Part shown: positions 5,183 through 39,846 of the stretch, piece by piece | Layout: each line of letters opens with the position of its first letter | Position numbering within the stretch: the stretch's first letter is position 1 | Source: Porticoccus sp. | Lineage (GTDB): Bacteria; Pseudomonadota; Gammaproteobacteria; Pseudomonadales; Porticoccaceae | Length of the DNA: 39,846 nucleotides | Reading direction: 5' to 3' | Assembly: GCA_018066715.1 (NCBI GenBank) | Contig: JAGPWA010000115.1 | Span: forward strand, 1 to 39,846 | The notes under the pieces: model-generated | Seen by the model: only the letters and a program-made list of their open reading frames with translations | The model's database searches: none | Told to the model about the DNA's origin: nothing | Position numbers and translations under genes: made by a program

Positions 5183-5494
5183 ATGAGTAGAAAAAAGAAG
5201 ATTAAAGACCCTTCCATCCAACCAATGTTCCCTATTGGTTCAGACGCAGGGCGAGAAGACCGGGAGAAACTACGGGCGCGCATTCAAAAAATAGATGAGG
5301 ATGCCTCTCAAAAGATTTTTGTACCGTTCTCCGTCAATATGGAACAACGCAAGGCGGCAATAAAGCTTCGCTCTCAAGGCAAAAATATTGTGAGCGGGTT
5401 TCCTGAACAGGTTCCCCATTTCAGTGAGCTCGGGTGCACGCTTTATTTGGTCGAAGAAGAGGGTGAGTTTGTCGTCAGGCCAGTCCCTGAATAG
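5183..5494 (+). CDS. small protein of unassigned family, copy 1 (S1)
   Basis: 103-aa ORF; paralogous to the protein at 7219..7527 (shared GxDAGRED and SQKIFVPFSVNMEQRKAA...LVEE(E/D)GEFVVR). Confidence 0.7.
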   Translation: MSRKKKIKDPSIQPMFPIGSDAGREDREKLRARIQKIDEDASQKIFVPFSVNMEQRKAAIKLRSQGKNIVSGFPEQVPHFSELGCTLYLVEEEGEFVVRPVPE

Positions 5495-5670: not shown

Positions 5671-6090
5671 TTGTTTCCATTCCCTGAAAACCCATGTGCC
5701 AGTAACGTGAAAGACTGTAACCAGTGCGGCAAATGTTGTGTCAAATACAGTAACGGCGGCTTATCTGTATCAGAAAGCGAAATAGAGCTGTGGGAGCTGT
5801 TTAAGCCCGACATCTACCAATATGTCAGCAATGGAAAAATCTGGGTAGACCCAAAAACCGGCGAACAAATAGAGCGGTGCCCCTGGCTACGAAAAGAACC
5901 CAACCAAGAGAAGTACACCTGCGATATTTATTACGACCGCCCCGATGACTGCAAATTTTATCCAGTCACCATCGAGCAAATGGTCAAGGATGAATGCGAG
6001 ATGTTAGAAGAGCGGGACTTGGATAAGCCAAAACAAGCGCAGGTTGCATTAGATAAACTGATGGTAGATAGCCGACCCTCTGTTAAATAA
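5671..6090 (+). CDS. YkgJ-like cysteine-cluster (CxxCxxCC) protein
   Basis: DCNQCGKCCVKYSNGGLSVSESEIEL...RCPWLRKEPNQEKYTCDIYYDRPDDCKFYPV. Confidence 0.85.
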   Translation: MFPFPENPCASNVKDCNQCGKCCVKYSNGGLSVSESEIELWELFKPDIYQYVSNGKIWVDPKTGEQIERCPWLRKEPNQEKYTCDIYYDRPDDCKFYPVTIEQMVKDECEMLEERDLDKPKQAQVALDKLMVDSRPSVK

Positions 6091-6849: not shown

Positions 6850-7081
6850 CCGAAAGTGACATAGAAGAGCAACCCAACTGCGATAAGGGGCTAACCAAAA
6901 TAAATAGACCAGTGATACGTATAACGACTGACCTGACGACGGAAAGCTCTACCCAGCCACCATAGAGAAAATGGTCAAGGATGAGTGCGAGATGCTAGGC
7001 GTGCAGGGCCTGGATAAGCGAAAATGAGCGCAGGTTGCATTAGATAAGCTAATGCTGGATAGTCGCCCGCCTTGTGAGTAA
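6850..7081 (+). pseudogene. decayed copy of the YkgJ-like gene at 5671..6090
   Basis: 6893..7081 reads in frame as NQNK*TSDTYND*PDDGKLYPATIEKMVKDECEMLGVQGLDKRK*AQVALDKLMLDSRPPCE against NQEKYTCDIYYDRPDDCKFYPVTIEQMVKDECEMLEERDLDKPKQAQVALDKLMVDSRPSVK. In-frame stops at 6905, 6929 and 7025; a short upstream match (ESDIE vs ESEIE) implies an internal deletion. Confidence 0.85.
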
Positions 7082-7218
7082 AGAGCTTTGATTCCTTTGA
7101 TCAGATCTCTTTGTTACGATAGCGGCAAGAAAGAGTGGTGCCTGAGACGGACAGCTTCAGTTTCCACTTATTTTCACGCCCCAATATTTACAATACAAAC
7201 CCAATGCCGAGTATCGAG

Positions 7219-7527
7219 ATGAGTACACATAGAACCAAAGAACAAGCAGCTACAAACCTACAACTGCCTAAAGGCACTGATGCAGGGCGTGAAGACGTAG
7301 ACAAACACCGGGAGCGTTTACAAGAAAGAGAGGCGCTTGCATCTCAAAAGATTTTTGTACCGTTCTCCGTCAATATGGAACAACGCAAGGCGGCAAGACA
7401 GCTTCGGGAAAAAGGAAAAAACCTAGTCTGTGGAACCCCCGGCCAAGAGCCAAATTTTGCATTGCTCGGCTGTTTTCTCCAGCTGGTTGAAGAAGATGGT
7501 GAGTTTGTTGTTAGGTCTACGATTTAA
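7219..7527 (+). CDS. small protein of unassigned family, copy 2 (S2)
   Basis: Paralogue of 5183..5494; ATG at 7219 aligns with the S1 start (an upstream in-frame ATG exists at 7204). Confidence 0.65.
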   Translation: MSTHRTKEQAATNLQLPKGTDAGREDVDKHRERLQEREALASQKIFVPFSVNMEQRKAARQLREKGKNLVCGTPGQEPNFALLGCFLQLVEEDGEFVVRSTI

Positions 7528-7590: not shown

Positions 7591-7620
7591 TGGGTATTCG
7601 CACTATTCTGCCACTCAGTG

Positions 7621-7712
7621 TCTCCGCGGCTACCTTCGCAAAATCCCATCTGCATCCGCACGTTTAAAACCTAACAGTGAATCCATAACCACCTGTTCTC
7701 GGTTGAACGAAC
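7621..7712 (-). pseudogene. remnant of hemB 3' end
   Basis: Aligns with 13699..13800 of intact hemB; minus-strand translation FNREQVVMDSLLGFKRADADGIL against [23 protein letters not shown]; 10-bp deletion between two caaaat repeats causes a frameshift. Confidence 0.88.
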
Positions 7713-8030
7713 CTTTTTTCATATTAGAGGACTCTGATCCTCTTTAACGTCGACTTTCAACTCGTGAATGTAAAAAATTACAAGCCATCAGGCTCAGTAT
7801 CAAAGCAGGGAAACTGCTAACACATTGATTTTTTGAGATTATCGATTATGATCAATGGCCTAATGAATAAATAAAAACATTGCACGGAGGCTTGTTTTGT
7901 CGGTAATTTCACTTCTTTGTAAACCTGTTAACCCCTTGACTTTAACGCCAAATCATCAGATTTTTGGTATTAATCTTCCTCAGATACAGAGCCTTCTAGT
8001 TAATAGGCCACTTGGTTTATTAATTAACAG

Positions 8031-8555
8031 TTAGCTGTACGGGAAACTTTATGAGTGTCGAATATAAAATCAATGAGCCAATAAGCACGGATCAATTTAT
8101 AGAGTTGCTTACAAATTCTACTCTAGGCGATCGCCGTCCAATTCAAGATCGTGAATGTATGGAAGGTATGATTTCAAACTCTAATCTTACTGTTAGCGCT
8201 TGGGATTTAGGAAAACTTGTTGGTTTATCTCGATCAGTTACAGATTTTCATTATGCTTGTTACCTTTCCGATTTGGTTGTCGCCGAAAGTCATCAAAAAA
8301 TGGGTATTGGAAAACAATTACAAATTATTACGCAGAGTGAACTTGGGCCTCGTTGTAAATTAATTCTAATAGCCGCTCCATCTGCTAATGAATATTATGA
8401 GCATATTGGTTTCGCAAATAATGAACGTTGCTGGGTACTTGATCGTGATTCGAGCGTGCACAGCTAACAAGGCACTTAAACGGGACTAAAACAGTGGGTT
8501 ACGTTTCGCTTCGCTACTCATTTTAACCCACTATTTTAGTCCGCTTAGTGCGGCG
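8031..8555 (+). mobile_element. integron gene cassette (GNAT gene + attC), no integrase in window
   Basis: Cassette start g|ttagct (8030/8031) is the exact complement of the R''-like agctaac at 8462-8468; ORF starts 20 nt into the cassette; attC with foldable arms; cassette ends at gcg|tta (8555). Confidence 0.75.
8051..8467 (+). CDS. GNAT family N-acetyltransferase
   Basis: YACYLSDLVVAESHQKMGIGKQLQ...LILIAAPSANEYYEHIGF. Confidence 0.9.
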   Translation: MSVEYKINEPISTDQFIELLTNSTLGDRRPIQDRECMEGMISNSNLTVSAWDLGKLVGLSRSVTDFHYACYLSDLVVAESHQKMGIGKQLQIITQSELGPRCKLILIAAPSANEYYEHIGFANNERCWVLDRDSSVHS

Positions 8556-8561
8556 TTATAA
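8462..8561 (+). repeat. attC site (recombination site of gene cassette)
   Basis: agctaac ... gcacttaaacgg / ccgcttagtgc imperfect arms with extra bases on the 5' arm, ... gcgttataa; inner 19-bp stem ggactaaaacagtgggtta (8483-8501) / taacccactattttagtcc (8524-8542) with one mismatch. Confidence 0.8.
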
Positions 8562-8575
8562 GGCTTGATAGAACG

Positions 8576-8764
8576 GTGAAAAATCCAACATGGCGAGATT
8601 TTCTTTATAGGGTTGGCGGAGCTGCTGTCCTATATATTGTGGTAATTGAGCTGACCAAAATGTACGTACCGCACTATACCGGCTACTCAGTTTTGGTTGT
8701 TACCTTGGCAGTTTTCATCTTTGTCGCCATTAATAGATCAAAATCTCGGAAAGGGTTCAAGTGA
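8576..8764 (+). CDS. small two-helix membrane protein (GTG start), possible second cassette ORF
   Basis: 62 aa with two hydrophobic segments (VGGAAVLYIVVIELTKMYV; YSVLVVTLAVFIFVAI); starts 20 nt after the attC cleavage point. Confidence 0.5.
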   Translation: MKNPTWRDFLYRVGGAAVLYIVVIELTKMYVPHYTGYSVLVVTLAVFIFVAINRSKSRKGFK

Positions 8765-8996
8765 GTAAGAGAATAGAACGAACGATTGGCAAGGTGCCAG
8801 CGGCGTATAGCAAGGTCGGGCACAACCGCGCAACACTGAATTTTTCTCGCCTGTGCCGGCAGCGTTAGATTTTATGAGAATCATAATTTGGATCCAAATA
8901 CTGAAATAGCTCTCGTTAATTATTTTTTGGCTCATCAGGCACTTCACTTTATCCGGCCGGTGACCACATTCAAAATGCATATAGGGGTATTGAGAT

Positions 8997-13684: not shown

Positions 13685-14710
<1,026 letters not shown>

Positions 14711-39600: not shown

Positions 39601-39846
39601 AAACTGAAGAGTTTGATCATGGCTCAGATTGAACGCTGGCGGCAGGCCTAACACATGCAAGTCGAGCGAGAAAGCACTTCGGTGCGAGTACAGCGGCGGA
39701 CGGGTGAGTAACGCGTAGGAATCTACCTAGTAGTGGGGGACAACATGTGGAAACGCATGCTAATACCGCATACGCCCTAAGGGGGAAAGCAGGGGATCTT
39801 CGGACCTTGCGCTATTGGATGAGCCTGCGTCAGATTAGCTAGTTGG
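39601..39846 (+). rRNA. 16S ribosomal RNA, 5' part (truncated by window end)
   Basis: aaactgaagagtttgatcatggctcagattgaacgctggcggcaggcctaacacatgcaagtcgagcg. Confidence 0.98.

Follow-up and report, generated by a model that had tools for sequence, protein, structure and literature searches.

How does a single gene cassette come to stand in a chromosome with no integron integrase beside it? An integron is described as one attI site beside one integrase gene. This question is raised by the window analyzed here, a stretch of 39,846 nucleotides from the genome of a marine bacterium, a Porticoccus sp., in which an acetyltransferase gene is followed directly by a long imperfect palindrome. The original prediction regarded the two as one cassette inserted at a chromosomal site other than attC.

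The acetyltransferase cassette and its attC site

The segment from 8031 to 8555 (525 nt, forward strand) is a genuine integron gene cassette that carries an acetyltransferase gene and an attC site. Its boundaries were read directly from the sequence. On the left, the crossover G8030^T8031 places a G at 8030 ahead of TTAGCT, and on the right the unit closes at G8555^TT, giving G^TT at both ends. The starting TTAGCT is complementary to the cassette's own R'' (AGCTAAC). The open reading frame (8051 to 8467, forward strand) starts 20 nt inside the cassette and encodes a GNAT-family protein of 138 amino acids, which matched PF13673 (E = 1.2e-9), PF13508, and PF00583 above the Pfam cut-off. Its stop codon, TAA, falls within AGCTAAC at 8462 to 8468. 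A GNAT gene with 73% identity was found in another genus of the same family (G119), in which AGCTAAC and an attC-like stretch again lie behind the gene.

The attC site itself spans 100 nt of the forward strand, from 8462 to 8561, with R'' AGCTAAC at 8462 to 8468 and R' GTTATAA at 8555 to 8561; the hairpin behind the GNAT stop codon terminates in GGCGTTATAA. In this study, attC sites were detected by folding, by homology, and by a home-made score. Folding of the bottom strand of 8461 to 8563 yielded -21 kcal/mol, compared with -9.3 ± 2.1 kcal/mol for shuffled sequences (z = -5.46), and returned the expected hairpin, with R'' and R' paired, the spacer unpaired, and bases left extrahelical. The z score of the top strand was -4.02. 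A simple scan for attC over the whole window gave its top score, 14.9, to the stretch from 8462 to 8561; the best shuffled sequence reached 10.8. The site is also approximately 75% identical to an attC beside an integrase gene in the same genome (G000:C66), which in turn shares 76% identity with the attC directly behind the intact intI of a relative (G026). The cassette and its limits were thus confirmed as predicted by sequence, fold, and attC score.

Directly downstream, a possible second, decayed cassette (8576 to 8764, forward strand) contains a membrane-type open reading frame of 62 amino acids that starts 20 nt past the crossover. No Pfam family was matched above the cut-off and no recognizable attC was found; a candidate at 8760 to 8872 folded no better than shuffled sequences (z = -0.58) and was rejected.

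The attI-Pc module upstream of the cassette

The cassette is preceded by a module of approximately 260 nt (7770 to 8030, forward strand; subfamily A) that has no adjacent intI and ends at the crossover G8030^T8031. Its right end, comprising the core and the crossover (7962 to 8033, forward strand), was the single match in the window to R1, a 73-position sequence-only model of the module right end, with 63.2 bits and an E value of 6.9e-19, the window being among the 12 sequences from which R1 was made. A putative cassette promoter, Pc, lies at 7825 to 7852 of the same strand (TTGATT, 16 nt, TATGAT), overlapped by an imperfect palindrome. By count, a scan for promoter-like hexamers did not exceed chance; the two hexamers are retained in five of six subfamily A copies, L044 being without the first, and in most copies of subfamily B.

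The genome of the window and four relatives contain further copies of the module, 71 to 81% identical; nearly all of these have the same G^TTA end and then a different cassette. A related region (60 to 63% identity over approximately 262 nt) lies directly upstream of an intact, divergently oriented intI in G011. Because of this position, we read the module as the putative attI-Pc region of an integron, minus the integrase. Related regions adjoin intI in G011, G013, and G119. An attI site is expected to lie between intI and the cassettes. The window holds no intI beside its copy; cassettes do begin at the conserved terminal G^TT, and orthologous loci diverge at that very point.

These observations bear on how the cassette arrived. 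The original prediction had proposed a SALIN-type locus, with insertion at a non-attC site of the chromosome. Off-target insertions at attG-like sites are documented according to Loot et al. 2024, as cited in PMC12901181. Here, however, the point of insertion coincides with the right end of a repeated attI-type module of approximately 260 nt, whose copies precede other cassettes at other loci and which occurs in related form upstream of intI, and does not lie outside the classical att sites. Off-target insertion is, in our judgment, scarcely credible for this locus. The accompanying statement that nothing attC-like precedes 8030 holds literally but misses the attI-type site at that position.

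Class 1 integrons carry a leader peptide, ORF-11, in their attI. A frame of 45 codons ending at the crossover is open in five of six module copies. As a leader peptide it was rejected, given that substitutions were spread evenly over the codon positions (126/119/139), with no coding signal. An inverted repeat noticed by eye pairs across the module in some copies only (L031, L042, and L052).

Several features of the surroundings were recorded. Just left of the module, at 7613 to 7719 (reverse strand), lies a 3' remnant of hemB with 67% amino acid identity over 27 residues and 74% nucleotide identity over 97 nt; the full hemB is at 13685 to 14698 (reverse strand), and the whole stretch between the two may have arisen by insertion of an island or by duplication. 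Two paralogous small genes lacking a Pfam match (5183 to 5494 and 7135 to 7527) and a gene of the CxxCxxCC family (5671 to 6090), followed by a broken second copy (approximately 6950 to 7082), are also near the module. At gathering level, the sole Rfam match in the window was the 16S rRNA at its end, where the 5' end of the gene (39601 to 39846) meets the end of the contig.

Copy number, integrase genes, and orthologous loci

The distribution of the module was assessed by running R1 over 112 genomes of the family, the Porticoccaceae. Within the genus, 11 of 17 genomes contained a total of 63 sites, a figure obtained with a model built partly from the sites it finds and including weak matches that are not individually proven. 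G016 carries 15 sites, G006 13, and the genome of the window 10, of which 7 have an intact end; the majority of sites reach the G^TTA end. Of 195 genomes of the order, only 13 besides that of the window gave a match at E ≤ 0.01. By eye, at least four subfamilies (A to D) can be told apart. Most of the genomes compared are metagenome-assembled. G008 is a one-contig genome and carries one site, so dispersal in this case is not an effect of assembly. Plasmid and phage collections contained no match to the module, and viral contigs gave a single pattern match with no attI-like end around it. A related attI-like region was seen behind a phage-type tyrosine recombinase on a contig of a Glaciecola sp. 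metagenome-assembled genome (L086, CAJQOP010000006.1), which is possibly misbinned; this region heads a cassette-like gene that, by eye, resembles AbiH/SIR2-like proteins.

To the left, the module has a defined limit. In 257 non-orthologous pairs, homology never reached more than approximately 290 nt to the left of the crossover and most often ended at 250 to 260 nt. The solo copy L179 and the intI-adjacent copy L172 are 97% identical over 261 nt and unalignable beyond. Since non-orthologous homology stops approximately 250 to 290 nt before the crossover, the module is, as judged from these alignments, a discrete dispersed unit without intI.

The absence of a visible integrase is a feature of the window and not of the whole genome. 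No intI was found in the window or in 108 kb around eleven loci, which were searched with positive controls, and the window locus presents attC without a nearby intI, as a CALIN or SALIN does, rather than the intI, attI, and cassettes of a complete integron. Elsewhere in the same genome, on other contigs, three integrase genes were detected. The one on C81 is intact (407 bits against a cut-off of 265). That on C66 has an internal stop codon and its own first cassette, and that on C86 is broken and shares approximately 76% identity with the IntI of G011 and G027 (L028 and L031). The C66 locus (L016, 4660 to 6393) is a second integron of this genome, with another type of attI and an array of one cassette with attC, followed at the contig end by a gene that looks SelO-like by eye.

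Among the 63 sites of the genus, approximately 4 adjoin an integrase gene, clearly so at G011:C1, G013:C2, and G006:C8 and weakly at G005:C7. Within approximately 500 nt upstream of 56 further sites, other genera included, IntI was clear at L172 and L193, a fragment at L195, and weak at L188, and matches at L163 and L166 were at noise level. No adjacent intI was found for modules of subfamily A. In G016, which has the most sites and whose assembly is 90% complete, no IntI match exceeded the level of Xer. With many sites and no IntI found, some of the arrays in G016 may be frozen, that is, no longer served by IntI.

The scarcity of neighboring integrases could reflect decay, in which an intI originally stood beside the attI of every array and was lost by deletion, leaving attI and cassettes behind. 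This is the usual view of CALINs and the origin proposed for them (PMC9024848), and it agrees with the broken genes on C66 and C86, with intI fragments in several relatives, and with the C-terminal intI fragment that lies just left of the module at L195. Random deletion, however, would leave ragged left ends, whereas non-orthologous copies share an end approximately 260 nt from the crossover, at the same point where L172 and L179 part. Moreover, genomes carry up to 15 copies, most of which have no intI remnant. Because such a common left end is not expected from case-by-case deletion, we consider this explanation unlikely.

A second alternative is that the modules are miniature transposon-like promoter repeats, moved by some transposase, with a right end that by coincidence makes a good target for IntI. 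Their discrete size, their varied flanks, the decayed copies with internal deletions, and a partial inverted repeat (AGGCTCTGTATCA...TGATACAGAGCC) are in its favor. Yet copies also occupy the attI position of integrase genes (L172 and L031), and clear terminal inverted repeats and target duplications were not found. As a full account of the modules we judge it quite unlikely; as a route of dispersal it is compatible with a distributed integron, which we prefer and describe below.

The content of the arrays was then considered. The first open reading frame starts 11 to 52 nt past the crossover in 20 of 27 loci from three genomes. At a score of at least 11, attC-like sites were present downstream in the forward direction at 16 of 45 loci and in reverse at 3 of 45, in a simple scan that leaves many downstream attC sites unrecognized; a strict regular-expression counter returned few sites, 10 forward and 0 reverse.

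Orthologous loci of two species begin different cassettes at the same base. In the clearest pair, G000:C95 and G016:C16, the two sequences are 89% identical through flank and module as far as the crossover. Past it, the former has an HNH-type gene within approximately 1.4 kb and the latter has other cassettes over approximately 1.47 kb; both arrays close with attC and G^TTAAAT, after which a match of 94% resumes. The G008/G007 pair also matches up to the crossover and then contains other cassettes, with a right flank at 65%, and in the G013/G004 pair, again with other cassettes, the match resumes at 85%. At the mvaB locus, a module of subfamily B (G016 and G009) or subfamily C (G006) heads arrays of differing content between conserved flanks; no clean, module-free empty site was obtained there, the other relatives differing on the right side. 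Arrays that differ from the crossover onward fit use of the sites rather than their decay.

The SPOR/TrmH locus also gave no clean empty site, as G006 is rearranged and the module of G009 is truncated. Flanks encoding a SPOR protein and a TrmH-like protein border one array in the genome of the window and in G016 (L226/L227 versus L264/L265). In G006, they are on different contigs, the TrmH-like one beside a module. Because these flanks are split between contigs, modules may be points of rearrangement.

Proposed filling of dispersed sites in trans, and known systems

Taken together, these data make it probable (roughly 0.7) that the locus belongs, as one arm, to a distributed integron, in which dispersed attI-Pc landing sites are filled in trans by IntI. 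The module at 7770 to 8030, with no integrase gene of its own, would be the landing site. An integron integrase encoded elsewhere, for which the intact C81 enzyme is the candidate in this genome, would insert the GNAT cassette at the G^TT of the module, and the putative Pc would transcribe it. With many module copies per genome and genus, most heading a short cassette array of their own, genes could be captured at many sites in parallel instead of at a single one.

The cassette with its attC, the conserved module, its dispersal, the absence of intI beside most copies, and the different cassettes that orthologous loci start at one base are all direct observations. Recombination is deduced from comparative evidence throughout, which weighs against the reading, as does the fact that C86, the integrase of this genome most like those beside related attI regions, is broken.

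An extension of this reading, which we hold to be doubtful, is that the module is itself mobile and possibly moved by IntI. The result would be a self-multiplying, genome-wide integron whose integrase both fills landing sites and spreads them. It is hinted at by module-like sequences that immediately follow a crossover, that of an attI in G006:C15 (L089) and that of an attC in L091, together with a short repeat common to the left and right ends of the module. L099 (G006:C15:42183-42680) contains two modules in succession, one of subfamily B and, some 20 to 25 nt later, one of subfamily A, as if the latter had entered the attI of the former. In addition, two loci show the motif TGATCAG(A/T)GGGAGG(A/G)GC starting just past the crossover of an attI or attC, GTTA(A/G)C, and the motif recurs in a third (L089rc 3234, L091rc 2977, and L168 484); a related sequence lies behind the last attC of L163, at approximately +1510. 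The motif may mark the right end of arrays or belong to a further type of module.

If IntI serves ten or more promoter-bearing attI modules of one lineage in trans, that lineage can take up and express cassettes at many loci of its chromosome, and CALINs, proposed to be remains of integrons, would in part be working branches. Standard software does not search for attI outside class 1 and, ignoring attI, would call these loci CALINs (PMC9024848); for this reason, such systems could be missed elsewhere. Our search, confined to the open literature, turned up neither a dispersed multi-copy attI module nor any account of integrons in Porticoccaceae. An attI-headed array without integrase is already known singly, and for the multi-copy module we found no report.

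Compared with the known integron of intI, attI, Pc, and array, the loci described here have the same attC structure, G^TT crossover, attI-type site with a putative promoter, and short 5' leaders, and wherever the module has an intI, the gene is divergent and bears a LexA-like box. They differ in that most attI-Pc sites lack an adjacent intI and form a repeated unit of approximately 260 nt at many loci. With CALINs and SALINs they share cassettes with attC and no neighboring intI; unlike these, they are headed by a conserved attI-Pc module, and orthologous arrays differ from the crossover onward. Sites of the attG type (Loot et al. 2024) also place cassettes outside the main integron but, as far as their citation in PMC12901181 goes, diverge from classical att sites, whereas the modules are conserved and of attI type. 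The attI-type (delta-attI) cassettes known from mobile integrons (PMC12901181) likewise have attI recombining outside its usual position. There it replaces attC in resistance cassettes, and here it heads chromosomal arrays. Similar to our loci is the Shewanella prophage M16-3, in which attI heads an integrase-less array, a CALIN, with an intact integron elsewhere in the genome (PMC9892861). That is a single case in one prophage with an attI of 28 nt, in contrast to the multi-copy, promoter-bearing chromosomal module that we find in many species.
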